This document shows, piece after piece, positions 36,380 through 46,535 of a stretch of 64,000 nucleotides of DNA (positions are counted from its first letter, which is position 1; the number at the start of each line of letters is the position of its first letter). Location of the stretch: assembly GCA_021295735.1 (NCBI GenBank), contig JAGWBU010000002.1, positions 5,094-69,093 on the forward strand. The letters run 5' to 3'. The notes below the pieces were generated by a model. That model was given only the letters and a program-made list of their open reading frames with translations. It was not told the origin of the DNA and did no database searches. Both the position numbers and the translations under genes were made by a program. The stretch is from Candidatus Poribacteria bacterium. GTDB lineage: Bacteria > Poribacteria > WGA-4E > WGA-3G.

Positions 36380-37270
36380 CTATTTGCGTCTGGAAAGATA
36401 CGCCGACAACGCATGGTCAAACGGGGTAGTAGTATCCATTTGCACATAATCAATCTGGCTCGCGCCGCATCCGCGACGGTAATTCTGAATAAACTGATTC
36501 AGATTTTCAAGATATGCGGTTTTAAGTGAGTTGGCTTGTGTTGAAAGTGTCTGCCCAGTTTCCATATCTCGAAAAATTACAGAGCCGTTATATGGGAAGG
36601 TGAGTTCAGCATGATCAAGTAGGTGAAAAACGATCACCTCATGTTTCTGATGGCGGAGATGTTTCAGTGCTGATATGACGTTCGAGGGTTCATCAAGTAG
36701 GTCGGAGATAACAATAACCAATCCGCGCCTAACAATCCTTTTAGCGAGTTCGTGAAAGAGACCGCTCAACTCGGTTTCCTGCCCAGGCGTAGCATTTTCA
36801 AGCGCAGACATAATTGCACGCAGATGTGTTGCTGCGCCTCTCGGTGGAATATATTGCGTAATATCTGTATCAAAAAGAGCTAATCCAACAGAGTCGCGTT
36901 GCTTCAGCATGAGGTAGGTAAGCGTGGCAGCAAGATAACACCCATATTCAAACTTCGTCAAAGTGTCATCTTTATGTTTGTAGTTCATTGACGCGCTTGT
37001 ATCAAGTAGAATATATGCGCGTAGGTTCGTCTCCTCTTCAAACTTCTTAACATAATACCGATCAGATTTCCCGTAGACCTTCCAGTCGATATATCGGATT
37101 TCATCGCCGGGCATATATTGCCGATGCTCAGCGAACTCTACGCTAAACCCCTGATACGGACTTTTGTGCAACCCGGTAACGAACCCTTCAACCACAAGTC
37201 GGGCGACAAGTTCCATACCTCCGATACGAGAGAGTGCTACTGGATCAAGATATTTGTGAGATGTTTGCAT
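36380..37270 (-). CDS. DUF58 family protein
   Basis: 296 residues from ATG 37270; an in-frame GTG at 37285 is possible. The DUF58 core is clear: YLDPVALSRIGGMELVARLV, RQYMPGDEIRYIDWKVYGKS and a von Willebrand A-like region with AYILLDTSASM (a MIDAS-type D-x-S-x-S). Members often pair with MoxR AAA ATPases in envelope-stress or metal-insertion systems. No MoxR gene is adjacent. It follows the SPFH-like and small membrane proteins in the same direction and may work with them. Confidence 0.88.
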   Translation of the reverse strand: MQTSHKYLDPVALSRIGGMELVARLVVEGFVTGLHKSPYQGFSVEFAEHRQYMPGDEIRYIDWKVYGKSDRYYVKKFEEETNLRAYILLDTSASMNYKHKDDTLTKFEYGCYLAATLTYLMLKQRDSVGLALFDTDITQYIPPRGAATHLRAIMSALENATPGQETELSGLFHELAKRIVRRGLVIVISDLLDEPSNVISALKHLRHQKHEVIVFHLLDHAELTFPYNGSVIFRDMETGQTLSTQANSLKTAYLENLNQFIQNYRRGCGASQIDYVQMDTTTPFDHALSAYLSRRK

Positions 37271-37311
37271 ATTTGCTTTCACCACTGTGTGAAGTGGTAT
37301 AATGGTAGTAG

Positions 37312-38480: not shown

Positions 38481-38587
38481 GCTAATCACCTCCTAAGCCA
38501 TGTTTCACAATTATAACAAAAACCCACCTCAATATCAACAGAAATCTAAGAAATGAAGAGAGAAATATCTTGGAAGAAAACTCATCA

Positions 38588-38678
38588 TGAATTTCAATAT
38601 TGCAGGTAAAATGATGCAACGATCAGCAAATTATATCGTTTTATATTTTGTTGGGAAAACAGATAAAACCCGCATGGA
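38588..38678 (+). pseudogene. Decayed VOC gene fragment
   Basis: The DNA here aligns by eye with the 5' end of the VOC genes that follow, most closely the second: TTCAATATTGCAGGTAAAA matches its TTTGAAATAGCAGGTAGAAA, and TTTTGTTGGGAAAACAGATA matches its TTTGGTTGGAAAACGGATAA. Frames are broken. It is most likely the relic of a further copy at the left edge of the array. Confidence 0.55.
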
Positions 38679-38775
38679 TTTTTTCTGCATACACTATTAC
38701 CTTAGCCCATTTCCATGGGCATGCAATCAATCACAAAGTCATTGATGTTAAGATTGAAAATACGGAGCATATTCA

Positions 38776-39162
38776 ATGGGTAATCCTGTTACATACTTTG
38801 AAATAGCAGCTAAAAACGGTAAAGAGTTATGTGGTTTTTACAGTTCCGTATTTGGCTGGAAAATAGAACAATTACCTGGCGGCGATTACGGCATTTACTC
38901 TTACGGTATTGACTCACAGTCAGAAGAGGGAATAGCCGGGCACATTTTTGTGTTGCCTGAGTTTTTTGACTTCACAAACCAAGTCACTTTTTACGTTAAG
39001 GTAGACAATCTACAAACCTATCTTCAGAAGGTGGAAAGTCTTGGTGGTCATACCCTTATACCACCTCAGCAAATTCCTGGTAACAGAGGGTCATTCGCAT
39101 GGTTCGTTGACCCGAGTGGTAACTGCTTAGGATTGTACAGACAACCAGAATCGAATGAGTGA
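38776..39162 (+). CDS. VOC superfamily protein, array member 1
   Basis: 128 residues, one glyoxalase/bleomycin-resistance (VOC) unit with two beta-alpha-beta-beta-beta modules. N-terminal module: NPVTYFEIAAKNGKELCGFY. GIAGHIF leads into the second module, with VTFYVKVDNLQTYLQKVE and FVDPSGNCLGLY at the end. The invariant array residues are the E of FEI and the H of GHI, likely ligands. The residue before FEI is Tyr rather than His. It is the first of nine same-strand genes and has GGAGC before its ATG. Substrate unknown. Confidence 0.88.
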   Translation: MGNPVTYFEIAAKNGKELCGFYSSVFGWKIEQLPGGDYGIYSYGIDSQSEEGIAGHIFVLPEFFDFTNQVTFYVKVDNLQTYLQKVESLGGHTLIPPQQIPGNRGSFAWFVDPSGNCLGLYRQPESNE

Positions 39163-39228
39163 AGCCCTCAATTTTTACGTTCAATTTGTGATTAAAGAAT
39201 TTAATATGATAGGAGAAACTAAATTTAA

Positions 39229-39603
39229 ATGGGAAATCCAGTTGTGTATTTTGAAATAGCAGGTAGAAACGGCGAAAAGTTAAACGATTTTTATTGTTCC
39301 ATATTTGGTTGGAAAACGGATAAAAACCCTTATGGTGGGGCATATATGGTTGACTCGCAGCCGGATGATGCGGGCATCCCCGGACACATTTTTCCGGTTA
39401 CAGAAGATATGGACTTTGATAAGCACGTCACCTTTTATGTTGAGGTGGACGATCTTCAAGCGTATCTTGACAAGGCAGAAAGTCTTGGAGGAAAGATCCT
39501 AATTCCACCACAAGAGATTCCTGGGAACATGGGAGCGTTTGCACTTTTCCTTGACCCAAGCGATAATTGCATTGGATTGTATCGACTCCCAGATTCAAAT
39601 TAA
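39229..39603 (+). CDS. VOC superfamily protein, array member 2
   Basis: 124 residues: NPVVYFEIAGRNGEKLNDFY, GIPGHIFPVTEDM, HVTFYVEVDDLQAYLDKAE, LIPPQEIPGNMGAFALFLDP then SDN in place of SGN. Tyr precedes FEI. It is 66 bases after member 1, with GGAGAAACTAAATTTAA before the ATG. A terminator-like hairpin follows its stop, so it may end a transcript shared with member 1. Closest by eye to member 1 and to the decayed fragment. Confidence 0.88.
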   Translation: MGNPVVYFEIAGRNGEKLNDFYCSIFGWKTDKNPYGGAYMVDSQPDDAGIPGHIFPVTEDMDFDKHVTFYVEVDDLQAYLDKAESLGGKILIPPQEIPGNMGAFALFLDPSDNCIGLYRLPDSN

Positions 39604-39653
39604 CCATATCCATGCTTCCTTGAGCGTGAATCGTAAGAAACTTTGAGACTTAC

Positions 39654-39695
39654 AAAAAGAGGGTGGCGAACTAAGGTTTACCACTCTATTTTTTT
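39654..39695 (+). terminator. Terminator between VOC members 2 and 3
   Basis: AAAAAGAGGGTGG (39654-39666) pairs with CCACTCTATTTTT through one G-U pair and one mismatch, ending in a T-run (TTTTTTT). It resembles the terminator at 42382 in sequence, which suggests both were copied with the VOC genes. Confidence 0.6.
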
Positions 39696-39732
39696 CGCAA
39701 TAATACATTCAAATTATAAAGGAGTAACTTCA

Positions 39733-40095
39733 ATGGGAAATCCAGTTGTGCATTTTGAAATAGCAGGCAAAAACACTGAAAATTTAAGCAATTTTTACGG
39801 TTCGTTATTTGGTTGGGATATACAAAAGGACAATGACGGATTTTACAACATAATGCCAGTTCCAGATTTAGAACAGGGTATATGTGGGCACATATTACCC
39901 ACTACTGAAGAAATGTCTGTATCTAACTTTGTCTCTGTTTATATTCAGGTAGATGATCTTGAAGCATCACTTGAACAAGTAGAAAATCACGGTGGCAAAA
40001 CCCTTGTCCCGCCACAAACTATTCCTGGAAGCGGGAGCTCTTTTGCTATGTTCCTTGACCCAAGTGGCAACTGCATCGGTTTGTACAAAGCATAA
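39733..40095 (+). CDS. VOC superfamily protein, array member 3
   Basis: 120 residues from ATG 39733, chosen for AAAGGAGTAACTTCA upstream; a 30-codon extension overlaps the terminator and is rejected. NPVVHFEIAGKN has the His expected at the first metal-ligand position. GICGHIL, VSVYIQVDDLEASLEQVE and LVPPQTIPGSGSSFAMFLDP then SGNCIGLYKA complete the pattern. Of the nine it is one of three with His before FEI. Confidence 0.88.
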   Translation: MGNPVVHFEIAGKNTENLSNFYGSLFGWDIQKDNDGFYNIMPVPDLEQGICGHILPTTEEMSVSNFVSVYIQVDDLEASLEQVENHGGKTLVPPQTIPGSGSSFAMFLDPSGNCIGLYKA

Positions 40096-40176
40096 AATGT
40101 ATAAAGTCAAGAAATGATGAACAGCGGCAATCACGCAGTTTTCATCATAAAACGATTTAAATAAGGAGAAATTCTA

Positions 40177-40533
40177 ATGGCAAATCCTGTCACGATTTTT
40201 GAAATAGCAGGTAAAAAAGAAGATTCGTTATGCGATTTTTACAGTTCTTTGTTCGGTTGGGACATAAATCAAGACGATGATTGTGGGAATACTGTAAAAA
40301 CAGGATCCGATGAGGGCATTCAAGGACACATTGTCCAGACAACCGAACAGATGCCGATCACAAACCATGTTACTGTTTACATTGAAGTAGATGACATTGA
40401 AGCGTCTGCGAAGAAGGTAGAGAGTAATGGAGGAAAGGTAATTATGGGACCCATGCCTATTCCAGATGGCGAAAGTTTATTCGCAATGTTCCTTGACCCA
40501 AGTGGTAATTGTCTCGGTCTGTTCCAGTCTTAA
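40177..40533 (+). CDS. VOC superfamily protein, array member 4
   Basis: 118 residues beginning MANPVTIFEIAGKKEDSLCD, then GIQGHIVQTTEQM, VTVYIEVDDIEASAKKVE and FAMFLDPSGNCLGLFQS. Ile precedes FEI. The PPQEIP segment of other members is replaced by GPMPIP, which sits near the predicted pocket, so substrate choice may differ. AAGGAGAAATTCTA precedes the ATG; it lies 81 bases after member 3. Confidence 0.88.
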   Translation: MANPVTIFEIAGKKEDSLCDFYSSLFGWDINQDDDCGNTVKTGSDEGIQGHIVQTTEQMPITNHVTVYIEVDDIEASAKKVESNGGKVIMGPMPIPDGESLFAMFLDPSGNCLGLFQS

Positions 40534-40670
40534 GCAGCAATTGGTAGATAGTCGCTTCATTATCCACAAGGTTCGTCTGAAAATGGGGTGACACCTTTTT
40601 AGTGATTGTAAAGCAAAAGTCATTTTACCATTCGTTATGATAAAGAACCAATTTTAGATGGAGAAATATC

Positions 40671-41036
40671 ATGAGTAGTCCCGTCGTGCATTTCGAAATC
40701 GCTGGAAAAGATGTCCAAAAGTTGATTGATTTCTACAGCACCGTGTTTGAGTGGAAAATTTTTCCGTTAAACGATGAGTTATACATTGCGGACCCAGCGT
40801 CATCTCAAGGGATAGAGGGACATCTATTTGAGACAACCGAAGAAATGGGTTTCATAAACCTCGTCATCATCTATGTTCAAGTCTATGATATCTGGGGTTG
40901 TCTGGAACAGGCGGAGAGTCTTGGTGGAAAAATCCTGATACAACCACAAGAAATTCCGGGGAATGCAAGCCACTACGCGCTGTTCCGAGATCCAAGTGGA
41001 AACTCCATCGGTTTGTTGCAACGAAGATTATCATAG
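40671..41036 (+). CDS. VOC superfamily protein, array member 5
   Basis: 121 residues: SSPVVHFEIAGKDVQKLIDF with His before FEI, GIEGHLFETTEEM, VIIYVQVYDIWGCLEQAE and YALFRDPSGNSIGLLQ. It differs from the consensus at the second module (VYDIWGC instead of VDDLxA). It lies 137 bases after member 4; that gap contains CTTTTTAGTGATTGTAAAG, a short sequence also found near 29659. Confidence 0.87.
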   Translation: MSSPVVHFEIAGKDVQKLIDFYSTVFEWKIFPLNDELYIADPASSQGIEGHLFETTEEMGFINLVIIYVQVYDIWGCLEQAESLGGKILIQPQEIPGNASHYALFRDPSGNSIGLLQRRLS

Positions 41037-41075
41037 TGGAAAATCCATTCCAAACCAGTTTAAGGAGTAATCTTA

Positions 41076-41462
41076 ATGGAAAATCCAGTGACGAAATTTG
41101 AAATTGTCGGTGAGGATAGTAAAACATTAGGTGATTTTTATCGTTCCGTATTTGATTGGGAGTGGACAGAGTACGCTGAGGGATATTACGGCTTTGAGAC
41201 AGGTTCTGAATCTGATAACGGGATTGAAGGGCATATATATCCGCCAAACGATGAAATACCTTTAGTAGACAATGTTCCTTTTGCAAACACTGTTACCATT
41301 TATGTAACAGTGGAAGATATTCATGCTACGGTTGAGAAACTTGAGAGTCTTGACGGGACGATTCTTATGCCGCCTACAGTTGTATCCGATAAAGGTGAGT
41401 TATTAGCGATGTTTCTTGACCCAATCGGTAACCGAATTGGTTTATATCAACTAAAGGAGTAA
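41076..41462 (+). CDS. VOC superfamily protein, array member 6
   Basis: 128 residues: ENPVTKFEIVGEDSKTLGDF with Lys before FEI, GIEGHIYPPNDEIPLVDNVP with an inserted loop of about ten residues, VTIYVTVEDIHATVEKLE and LAMFLDPIGNRIGLYQL. PPTVVSD replaces PPQEIP. It is the most divergent copy. Member 7 follows after 5 bases, with its ribosome site inside the end of this gene. Confidence 0.87.
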   Translation: MENPVTKFEIVGEDSKTLGDFYRSVFDWEWTEYAEGYYGFETGSESDNGIEGHIYPPNDEIPLVDNVPFANTVTIYVTVEDIHATVEKLESLDGTILMPPTVVSDKGELLAMFLDPIGNRIGLYQLKE

Positions 41463-41467
41463 TATCA

Positions 41468-41857
41468 ATGGGTAATCCTGTGATGTTTTTTGAAATAGCA
41501 AGCAAACAAGGTGAATTGTTGCGTGATTTTTATTGCGACCTGTTTGATTGGACTATTCTACCATTTGGTTGGAGTATACCACACTTTCCAAATGATATTT
41601 TTGCTATTGATCCGACGCCGCCTCCATTACCGGACAAAGGTATAAAAGGACATATATATCCACTATCCGATGAAATAGATTTTTCTAATCGTGTTTCAAT
41701 TTTTATACAAGTTGACGATCTGCAAGAAACACTCGAAAAGATTGAGAGTCAGGGTGGAAAAACGCTCGTGCCGCCGCAGATGCTTCCTGATAGCATGGGA
41801 TCAATCGCTATGTTCCTGGATCCAAGCGGAAATGTTGTTGGTTTACATCAAATATAG
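41468..41857 (+). CDS. VOC superfamily protein, array member 7
   Basis: 129 residues: NPVMFFEIASKQGELLRDFY with Phe before FEI, an insertion in the first module (LPFGWSIPHFPNDIFAID), GIKGHIYPLSDEI, VSIFIQVDDLQETLEKIE and IAMFLDPSGNVVGLHQI. It starts 5 bases after member 6, the tightest spacing in the array, so these two are very likely co-translated. Confidence 0.87.
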   Translation: MGNPVMFFEIASKQGELLRDFYCDLFDWTILPFGWSIPHFPNDIFAIDPTPPPLPDKGIKGHIYPLSDEIDFSNRVSIFIQVDDLQETLEKIESQGGKTLVPPQMLPDSMGSIAMFLDPSGNVVGLHQI

Positions 41858-41982
41858 GTGTTATTGTATCACGAAACTTGAATTAACTTTTTAACCCTAA
41901 ACAATGCAATGATATAAAACATATCAGAAGCGAATCAAATATTTTGAATCAATTTCATTTTTAATTTAAAGGAGTAATACCA

Positions 41983-42339
41983 ATGGGCAATCCAGTCATG
42001 TGGTTTGAAATAGCAGGCAAAAACGGTGCGGAATTATCTGAGTTTTACCGTTCACTTTTTGGGTGGGAAATTTCACCGGAGACCAACGGTGTTCATCTGT
42101 GTGATCCATCTCCGGATCAGGGGATAAAAGGGCATATTTTTCAAACAACCGATGAGATGCCATATACAAACCACGTAACCGTTTATATTTCTGTGGACGA
42201 TCTTGAGGCAGCAGTTGCGAAGGTAGAGAGTAATGGCGGGAAGATTTTAATACCACCACAAGAAATTCCAGATTTCGGGGGTTCTTTTGCGATGTTTCTC
42301 GATCCAAGCGGCAATGTTATCGGTTTACACAAACAATAG
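41983..42339 (+). CDS. VOC superfamily protein, array member 8
   Basis: 118 residues: NPVMWFEIAGKNGAELSEFY with Trp before FEI, GIKGHIFQTTDEM, VTVYISVDDLEAAVAKVE and LIPPQEIPDFGGSFAMFLDP, then SGNVIGLHKQ. It is close to the array consensus. AAAGGAGTAATACCA precedes the ATG. A strong terminator lies 43 bases after its stop. Confidence 0.88.
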   Translation: MGNPVMWFEIAGKNGAELSEFYRSLFGWEISPETNGVHLCDPSPDQGIKGHIFQTTDEMPYTNHVTVYISVDDLEAAVAKVESNGGKILIPPQEIPDFGGSFAMFLDPSGNVIGLHKQ

Positions 42340-42381
42340 AAAATATAAATAGTGTAAATTCCGAACTTTTAGAATAATAAG

Positions 42382-42422
42382 AACAGAGTGGTGAAAAGAT
42401 TTCGCTACTCTGTTTTATTTTT
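42382..42422 (+). terminator. Intrinsic terminator between VOC members 8 and 9
   Basis: AACAGAGTGGTGAAA (42382-42396), loop AGA, and TTTCGCTACTCTGTT (42400-42414) form a 15-bp stem with two G-U pairs, followed by a T-rich tail (TTTATTTTT). The same tail leads straight into the ribosome site of member 9. Confidence 0.75.
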
Positions 42423-42436
42423 AGGAGTAGATTTCA

Positions 42437-42814
42437 ATGGGTAATCCAGTTACGCATTTTGAAATAGCCGGCAAAGACGGTGAGGCGTTAGCTGAGTTTT
42501 ATCGTTCCCTTTTTGATTGGGAGATTCATCGATTTGATTGGGAGATGATCCCGTTTTCCACCGGCATTTATGGAGTGATTGCGTCACCGGCTCAAGGGTT
42601 AAAAGGACACATTTTCCCAACGACTGACGATATGGATTTCTCAAATCATGTCACGATTTATATCCTCGTCGATGATCTTCATGCGACACTTGAGAAAATA
42701 GAAAATCATGGCGGCAAGATTGTTATCCCGCCTCAGGAAATTCCTGATAACAGAGGAATACTTGCTATGTTTCAGGATCCGGGCGGAAACGTTATCGGAA
42801 TTCATGAAGCATAA
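42437..42814 (+). CDS. VOC superfamily protein, array member 9
   Basis: 125 residues: NPVTHFEIAGKDGEALAEFY with His before FEI, a short first-module insertion (HRFDWEMIPFSTG) similar to that of member 7, GLKGHIFPTTDDM, VTIYILVDDLHATLEKIE and LAMFQDPGGNVIGIHEA, where LDPSGN becomes QDPGGN. It ends the array; metH converges from the right with 46 bases between the stops. Confidence 0.87.
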   Translation: MGNPVTHFEIAGKDGEALAEFYRSLFDWEIHRFDWEMIPFSTGIYGVIASPAQGLKGHIFPTTDDMDFSNHVTIYILVDDLHATLEKIENHGGKIVIPPQEIPDNRGILAMFQDPGGNVIGIHEA

Positions 42815-42860: not shown

Positions 42861-45800
42861 TTATGTAAGCACTGGTTTTAGCCATCGTCTTGTCGTTTCA
42901 ATGTCCATTCCAGTGCGTTTAGCGTAATCCGCAACCTGATCCTCTCCTATTCTGGCAATGCTAAAATACCGCGCATCCGGGTGTGAAAAATACCACCCGC
43001 TAACAGATGCTGCAGGAAACATCGCGAGATTCTCTGTAAGAGAAATACCTGTATTTTCAGTTGCATTCAGTAGATCAAACAAAACCCGTTTCTGGTTATG
43101 ATCGGGACACGCAGGGTAACCCGGGGCAGGACGAATCCCCCGATATTTTTCTGCTATCAAAGCATTGTTATCCAATGACTCATCAGTTGCGTAACTCCAA
43201 AGGACTGTGCGGACGTGCTGATGCATACACTCAGCAAAAGCTTCGGCTAACCGATCTGCTAATGCTTTTGCCATAATGCTGTTGTAGTCATCTTGATTTT
43301 GCTCAAACTCAGCACAGAGTTCAGGAACACCGATTCCAGTTGTTACAGCAAACGCGCCAATATAGTCCGGAAGAGATGTCACTTTCGGAGCAATGAAATC
43401 GCTAAGGCTTAGGTTCGGTCTGGAGAAAGGTTGCTCGGTCTGTTGACGCAAATGATGTAGCGTGCCAATAATCTCAGTTCTATCTTCGTCAGCATATATC
43501 TGCGTGTCATCACCAACACCGTTCGCAGGAAAGATTCCCACAACAGCAGATGCACAAAGTTTTTTCGCTTCAACGATTTGATTTAGAAGCGTTTTGCCAT
43601 CTTCAAGAAGTTTCCGCGCTTCTGCTCCCATATCTGGTTTTTCCAGAATATTTGGATATTTTCCTGTGAGTCCCCATGTTGTAAAGAAAGGAGTCCAATC
43701 AATATAGTCAACAAGTTGTGCTAATGGATAATTGTCAAAGACCTTAATACTTGTCATCTGTGGTTTGGGAGGGAGATAATTTTTCCAGTCAGGAATAAAT
43801 TTGCGTTGTTGTGCGGTAGCAAATGGCAAAAGCCTTGTCTGTTTCCTGTTTTTTGCGCGACGTTCCCGAATATCAGCATATTCTTCTCGTGTCTGATCAA
43901 CCAACTTTTGTTGGTTTTCACTGCTCATCAAATTACTGACAACACCAACACTTCGAGAAGCATCCTTGACGTGAATCGTGGCACCGCTGTACGCAGGTTC
44001 AATTTGGACAGCGGTATGAATCTTTGAAGTAGTGGCACCGCCAATAAGTAGTGGGATACGGAAACCTTCACGTTCCATCTCCTCAGCGACATGAACCATC
44101 TCATCTAACGATGGCGTAATGAGTCCGCTCAATCCAATTATATCAGCGTTCTCTTTCCGTGTTGTTTCCAAAATATCTTCCGCTGCCACCATCACACCGA
44201 GGTCAACGATATCATAATTATTACATCCTAACACCACGCCCACGATGTTTTTGCCGATGTCATGAACATCACCTTTCACCGTAGCCATTACAATCTTTCC
44301 TCTGGATTGAATACCGCCTTCAGTTTGTTCCATTTCAATATACGGAATGAGATGTGCAACAGCTTTTTTCATCACGCGTGCACTTTTGACGACTTGCGGT
44401 AGAAACATCTTGCCATCACCAAAAAGTTCACCTACGCGATCCATACCATCCATCAACGGACCCTCAATCACTTGTATAGGACGTTCATGCTTTAAGCGCG
44501 CTTCTTCTGTATCTGCTTCAACGAATTCGATAATACCTTCAACGAGGGCATGACTTAGCCGTTGCTCAACGGATAATTTTCGCCATTCCTTGTTAACGCG
44601 CTTCTTTTTTCCTTTGGCTTGCAGCGTACTTGCGAGATTAACGAGTCTATCCGTAGCATCTTCTCGGCGATTAAACAGAACATCTTCTACTGCTTCTAAC
44701 AATGGTTTAGGTAGATCGTCATAGACAGCAAGTTGACCTGCGTTTACAATACCCATGTCCATGCCTGCATTGATTGCATGGTAGAGAAACGCCGCGTGCA
44801 TCGCTTCACGCACTGTGTCGTTGCCACGGAAGGCGAATGAGATATTGCTTACACCACCACTCACTAATGCGGATGGACAAGTCTCTTTTATCTTTTGGCA
44901 CGCCTTTATAAATGCTTGCGCGTATTCATTGTGTTCTTCAATTCCTGTTGCAACAGCAAAAATGTTTGGATCAAAAATAATATCTTCTGGTGGAAAGTTT
45001 ACCTTTTCTGTCAATAATTTATACGCCCTTTGACATATCTCCACTTTACGTTCAAAAGTGTCTGCTTGACCTTTTTCGTCAAAAGCCATCACGATAACCG
45101 CCGCACCGTATTTTCTGATAAGCCGTGCCTTATCTAAAAAATCGTTCTCACCCTCTTTTAAACTAATTGAATTGACGACACCTTTCCCTTGAATGCATGC
45201 TAAACCTACCTCGATTACTTCCCATTTGCTGGAATCAAGCATAATAGGCACGCGACTAATATCTGGTTCTGCTGCGATTAGGTTTAAGAATTTGGCAATT
45301 GCGGTTTGTGCATCTAACATGCCAGCGTCCATATTGATGTCAATAAGTTGGGCGCCATTTTCTACCTGATCGCGAGCAACCTCTAATCCTGTTTCGTAAT
45401 CCTCGTTTTTGATAAGCGTTGCGAAGCGCCGTGATCCTGTTACATTTGTCCGTTCACCTACGTTAACAAAGAGAGAGTCGGGTGTGATGTTGAATGCTTC
45501 TAAGCCGCTCAATCGGCAAGCGCTTTCTTGAGGTTTGGGTTGTCTGGGAGGATATTCTGCGGCGACTTTGGTAATGGTTTCAATATGTTCAGGTTGGCTG
45601 CCACAGCATCCGCCGACGATATTGACGAATCCGTTTTGTGCGAATTCATGCATCCAATTTCCCATTTCCTCTGGTGTTTGTGTATAGTGCCCAAGTTCGT
45701 TTGGGAGTCCAGCGTTCGGATAACAAATAACAGGAATATCCGCGAGTTTTGCCATTTCTGCTAAATATGGGCGAATCTGTTGTGCACCAAAACCACAATT

Positions 45801-46535
45801 TAAACCTACAGCGAGTAGGTTTGCATGACGAACGGAGTTCCAGAAAGCTTCAACTGTTTGCCCTGATAGGTTGCGTCCACCGCCGCCACTTCTGTCGGAT
45901 GAGACGATGAGAGGGATGTCAATACCTCGTGTTTCAGCAAGGGTTTGTATTGCAAAGAGCGCTGCTTTACAGTTCAGTGTGTCCATGACAGTTTCAACGA
46001 GTAAGAGATCCGCACCGCCATCAATTAATCCCTCTGCTTGCGTGGTATAGGCAGATACAAGTTGTGCGAAAGTAATATTTCGGTATCCGGGGTCGTTCAC
46101 GTTCGGAGAGATGGAGCAGCTGCGATTTGTAGGTCCCATACTTCCCGCGACAAAGCGAGGTTTGTCTGGCGATGACCATTTGTCTACCACTTCACGAGCG
46201 ATTTGGGCTGCGGCGTAGTTTACCTGATACGCTTGATCCTGAAGTTGATAGTCTGCCATTGAAACGGATGTGCTGGTAAAGGTATTTGTCTCGATGATGT
46301 CCGCGCCTGCTTGGCAGTAATTTGTGTGGATTTCACGCACAATATCGGGTTGGGTGATAGAGAGCAGGTCATTATATCCTTTGAGTTCGGAGGGGTGATT
46401 TGCAAACTGGTCGCCTCGGAAATCTTCTTCCATGAGTCGATAGGTCTGCAAAAGTGAACCCATTGCACCGTCAAGGACCAATATCCGTTTCTTTAGTTCA
46501 TTTTTTAGATGTATTATCCGTTCAGAATCTGCCAT
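42861..46535 (-). CDS. metH: Cobalamin-dependent methionine synthase
   Basis: 1224 residues, full length (E. coli MetH has 1227). It transfers methyl from methyltetrahydrofolate to homocysteine through B12. Domains in order: homocysteine binding ([27 protein letters not shown] and GGCCG supply the zinc cysteines), pterin binding ([20 protein letters not shown]), B12 cap and binding ([20 protein letters not shown] with the axial His), and reactivation ([20 protein letters not shown]). AAGGAAAAAT precedes the ATG. The 88 bases upstream are too short for a cobalamin riboswitch. Confidence 0.97.

Follow-up and report, generated by a model that had tools for sequence, protein, structure and literature searches.

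A conserved tandem array of up to nine single-unit VOC genes in a genus of Poribacteria

Layout of the array

The window analysed here, a 64,000-nucleotide stretch from the genome (5.07 Mb in 230 contigs) of a Candidatus Poribacteria bacterium living as a sponge symbiont, holds a row of short, similar genes with the fold of the VOC (glyoxalase) superfamily. This locus raises the question of how so many related genes came to stand side by side, and what their products might do. An earlier note made from the sequence alone had proposed repeated duplication with divergence of the binding pockets. The features referred to below are as follows, where "both genera" means the window's genus (g1) and its sister genus (g2).

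36380..37285, minus strand: DUF58 gene (PF01882), conserved left anchor outside the array, beside the array in both genera
38588..38733, plus strand: decayed tenth copy, 5' half of a VOC gene upstream of gene 1, recognised by alignment to gene 2
38776..39162, plus strand: VOC gene 1, type A, Tyr before FEI
39229..39603, plus strand: VOC gene 2, type B, Tyr before FEI
39660..39692, plus strand: terminator-like hairpin between genes 2 and 3, found by pattern and at the same place in relatives
39733..40095, plus strand: VOC gene 3, type C, His before FEI; structure predicted
40177..40533, plus strand: VOC gene 4, type D, Ile before FEI
40671..41036, plus strand: VOC gene 5, type E, His before FEI; orthologues in the sister genus
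41076..41462, plus strand: VOC gene 6, type F, Lys before FEI (Asn or Ser in orthologues)
41468..41857, plus strand: VOC gene 7, type G, Phe before FEI
41983..42339, plus strand: VOC gene 8, type H, Trp before FEI
42380..42416, plus strand: terminator-like hairpin directly before the gene 9 ribosome site, found by pattern and in relatives
42437..42814, plus strand: VOC gene 9, type I, His before FEI
42861..46535, minus strand: metH (cobalamin-dependent methionine synthase, by Pfam), conserved right anchor, convergent, outside the array, beside the array in both genera

Inspection of the ORF list of the window and of the upstream sequences bore out the place, strand and size of the nine intact genes (38776-42814, plus strand, 118-129 aa each), and a GGAG-type ribosome site precedes the ATG of every one of them. 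For gene 3 the start was taken as the ATG at 39733 (120 aa); the mechanical ORF list has a longer TTG start. The residues before FEI read Y,Y,H,I,H,K,F,W,H from gene 1 to gene 9, exactly as previously listed. The NPVxxFEIA start ascribed to all copies is found in most of them, the exceptions being gene 5, which begins MSSPV, and gene 6, which reads FEIV. Gene 1 is 43-63% identical to the other copies, so these are not assembly duplicates, and since the array also recurs in independent assemblies, an assembly artefact was ruled out. Unrelated insertions were ruled out by the tree and by synteny. Neither of the two objections that the earlier note had raised against its own proposal, near-identical copies and unrelated insertions, therefore applies to this array.

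The suspected decayed tenth gene was also confirmed. Region 38560-38775 aligned to gene 2 with a score of 77, whereas 300 dinucleotide shuffles reached at most 52. Other species of the genus have this remnant too, at the homologous place upstream of the first array gene; in one of them (L116:5052-5201) its frame stays open for a length of 50 codons, as far as GHVI. We take it to be an old VOC fossil. Its conserved block TGCAAC...TATCGTTTTATATTT (window ~38640-38680) is kept in nearly all of thirteen aligned upstream regions, even in species whose synonymous sites are saturated relative to the window, and what remains of the fossil may now serve as a leader or promoter. Within the genus, 12 other genomes have counterparts of the block at the corresponding place.

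Two hairpins interrupt the row of genes. The pattern AGRGTGGNGAN...YACTCTNTTTT has only two matches in the whole window genome, both in the array, before genes 3 and 9. A less strict pattern has 14 matches in g1, of which 13 fall inside the array or immediately behind it. The distances to the genes on either side are near-constant, and the hairpin stands at a near-constant distance before VOC genes of types C, D and I (loci L115, L116, L117, L118, L125 and L130 besides the window). A generic terminator scan found the array region no richer in terminators than shuffled sequence, so the case for the hairpin rests on its confinement and conserved position. Rfam families gave no hit above the gathering threshold anywhere in the window, and around the first hairpin none appeared even with E values up to 1 allowed; a T-box or other known RNA was rejected on this basis. 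The hairpin looks like an intrinsic terminator placed before a ribosome site, that is, a candidate internal terminator or attenuator; it may also just have been copied along with the genes.

Old paralogue types at a mostly fixed site

In a maximum-likelihood tree of 125 proteins, array copies clustered by type rather than by genome. Support (bootstrap/SH-aLRT) was 100/100 for type A, nested in an A+B clade with 100/99, and 100/97 for C, 100/100 for D, 100/99 for F, 100/100 for G, 82/99 for H and 100/98 for I; type E together with its g2 orthologues had 100/99. The tree is carried by few columns, and its deeper joins are therefore not relied on. The order A-B-C-D-E-F-G-H-I is kept across species of the genus, with losses; in one genome (G002), a C-like copy of only 63% identity stands at a different place. 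For each window gene against its g1 orthologues, dN/dS was 0.03-0.23, taken only where dS was not saturated, which indicates that all nine genes are maintained by purifying selection. The proposal of repeated duplication with divergence thus stands as far as old types, a type-fixed residue before FEI and purifying selection are concerned, with the correction that the duplications are old and genus-wide.

In both genera, the array is flanked by the DUF58 gene and metH wherever the contig extends far enough. The stretches examined from G004 and G005 do not contain metH; in G005 its place is taken by two adjacent large genes (L118:10033-14832), convergent to the array and, judged by eye, TPR-thioredoxin-like. 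The 18 genomes of g1 contain 1 to 10 family matches each, with up to nine intact; in G005 a frameshift splits one of the genes behind its count of 10, and some of the low counts are due to cut contigs. Four copies are present in G010, a single-contig genome. The sister-genus genomes searched have 0-3 copies, and G058, a distant member of the class, gave four weak matches. A family search of the window genome found no further copy of this VOC family outside the array. Taken together, the shared DUF58-metH site and the varying copy counts indicate that the site is old and mostly fixed, while copies come and go.

Array genes are still being lost: type F has a frameshift in G005 (L118:7817-8193), and G012 carries broken copies of types G and X (L123:4860-5563). 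Remnants are present in G024 and G027. In relatives, some intergenic gaps of the array hold long palindromes that resemble REP or MITE elements (L119, L121, L124, L127).

Among the best 80 of 199 matches of a genome-wide scan with one start motif, the relatives scanned showed no other site with a tandem array in which up to nine intact single-unit VOC genes, old and individually conserved, stand together; such a search would overlook arrays formed by more distantly related VOC families.

Fold, metal positions and the residue before FEI

All nine array proteins matched PF00903 of the VOC superfamily by hmmscan (best E 1.3e-12), and in the genome search the array copies exceeded its curated cut-off. 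The NCBIfam family KbpA (NF053614) was matched by five of the nine (best E 1.9e-10), the other four giving no match. An AlphaFold2 model of the gene 3 monomer, built on 134 aligned sequences (mean pLDDT 91.7), has the paired beta-alpha-beta-beta-beta architecture with strands and helices in order, and VOC structures fill its fold lists: the best solved match is 2r6u (Z 15.3), followed by 1kmz (Z 12.2) and then by many VOC enzymes at Z 10-12. A profile search of the array family also reached Rv0577 (E 4.6e-18) and AbxF (E ~1e-6).

The known proteins closest to the array products differ from them in various respects. RHA04853 of Rhodococcus (2r6u), a single-unit VOC protein of unknown function, resembles them in length, architecture and its VHFEI start at 29-30% identity, but it aligns with GGMM at the GHI position and so lacks the His there. 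KbpA of Streptomyces and Rv0577 (PDB 3oxh) match at family level in sequence; Rv0577 is a fused two-unit protein, whereas the array proteins are single units. The mitomycin-binding MRD (1kmz), the second-best structural match, and TnmS1 (PDB 5umq) share the single-unit VOC fold, but are only ~15% identical to the array proteins and bind known antibiotics. E. coli glyoxalase I (GloA, PDB 1f9z) has the VOC fold, and its His5 aligns with the variable residue before FEI, yet its metal ligands at other positions are absent from the array proteins.

To compare the metal site, GloA was aligned with gene 3 at 17% identity, with GloA letters confirmed against 1f9z. His5, Glu56, His74 and Glu122, the established metal ligands of GloA, fall on gene 3 residues 7, 52 (beside His53), 68 and 116. 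The second assignment is ambiguous by one residue, as Glu56 falls on Gly52 adjoining His53. Position 68 is mostly Thr/Ser, also Ile/Leu, among the copies, and position 116 is Gly in nearly every copy; at the first ligand position, six of the nine window copies have a residue other than His. The array proteins thus lack the glyoxalase I-type ligand set and have a single-unit VOC fold without a canonical metal site, a trait of the MRD/bleomycin-binding type. With Thr/Ser and Gly at two canonical ligand positions, a standard VOC metalloenzyme is unlikely, and the earlier framing of the residue before FEI as a metal His does not hold in its usual sense. His7 and His53 could form a two-His metal site in types C, E and I.

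All 31 sister-genus sequences, and 50 of 53 from other phyla, have His before FEI. In g1 this residue is Y in type A, Y/F in B, H in C, I/L in D, H in E, N/K/S in F, F/Y in G, W/F in H and H in I. A 111-row tree, built with this residue masked, requires 11 changes at it, only three of them between His and non-His. Within g1, the residue has been exchanged and has since become largely fixed in each type, with essentially one residue class per type. Type-specific change at cup-facing positions showed a weak excess (permutation p 0.049), which is not relied on because it hinges on an assumed facing of strand 51-56.

The Glu of FEI (Glu9) is present in 82 of 83 g1 sequences and 53 of 53 from other phyla. 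The GHI His (His53) is found in 75/83, 31/31 and 20/53 sequences of g1, g2 and other phyla, respectively, Gly being commonest in the last; it is thus general in the genomes of the two genera, yet not invariant. The statement that this Glu and His never change accordingly holds within the window and fails across the genus.

Possible roles of the array proteins

We consider it about an even chance that the array is a lineage-specific birth-and-death set of metal-free, probably dimeric VOC pocket proteins for different small molecules. The tandem array would have grown through gene birth and death at its one mostly fixed chromosomal site in one Poribacteria genus, each gene encoding a single-unit VOC protein (two beta-alpha-beta-beta-beta modules) of the KbpA/RHA04853/Rv0577 branch. 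By analogy with such VOC proteins, the products would be dimers with pockets at the interface. Their canonical metal site is lost at sequence level; the Glu, and in most copies the His, would persist inside the pocket or close to it, and the position of the former first metal ligand has taken on other residues that became fixed type by type. The copies would most likely bind different small molecules and then sequester them or convert them without metal, and plausible ligands are hydrophobic natural products of the sponge holobiont. The gene context gives no pointer to the substrate. MRD-like folds occur in enzymes as well as in binders, a point against this reading. A rather unlikely elaboration is that putative mixed and pure dimers would yield a combinatorial pocket repertoire against changing sponge chemistry, with internal attenuator hairpins setting how far transcription reaches along the array.

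A doubtful but possible alternative is that the copies are metal-free tailoring or detoxifying enzymes, in which the Glu, usually with the His, would act as acid/base and the variable residue would set substrate choice, in analogy to AbxF, a natural-product cyclase. After RHA04853 and Rv0577, AbxF chains belong to the closest relatives by both sequence and fold (profile E ~1e-6, Foldseek E 9e-8), and the conservation of Glu9 (82/83 in the genus, 53/53 in other phyla) would suit such a role. However, AbxF consists of two fused domains and is only 22-23% identical, His53 is lost in several copies, and no biosynthetic cluster was recognised adjoining the array. The KbpA matches of five of the nine copies (best E 1.9e-10) and the deposition of 3oxh as a kinase-inhibitor homologue would fit kinase-binding regulators with a different partner for each copy, by analogy with Streptomyces KbpA, an AfsK inhibitor reported to block AfsK autophosphorylation (PMC7464533). 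We regard this as unlikely, since the relation to KbpA is one of broad family only and the type-specific change at the old ligand position speaks for a pocket that takes small molecules.

Canonical metal-dependent VOC enzymes (glyoxalase I, epimerase or dioxygenase) would agree with the superfamily fold, the GHI His and the His before FEI in types C, E and I, but are very unlikely given that the third and fourth ligand positions are Thr/Ser/Ile/Leu and Gly in essentially all copies and that the first His is missing in six of nine. Amplification for dosage, with redundant copies and no specialisation, could be read from the turnover of copies and the types lost or frameshifted in some species; it is hardly credible for types that are old, conserved in order and keep their own residues under purifying selection.

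The fold and the family are already known, and an array with type-fixed residues is undescribed as far as the collections and open papers show. A search restricted to the open literature found no paper linking Poribacteria with glyoxalase or bleomycin resistance, and nothing on AbxF or VOC drug sequestration. The array looks like a putative toolkit of related binding or enzyme pockets. As the same types recur across species, each with its own residue at the old metal-ligand position, they provide a ready-made series on ligand change in a VOC pocket, and the array is a lead to the chemistry that Poribacteria face in sponges.
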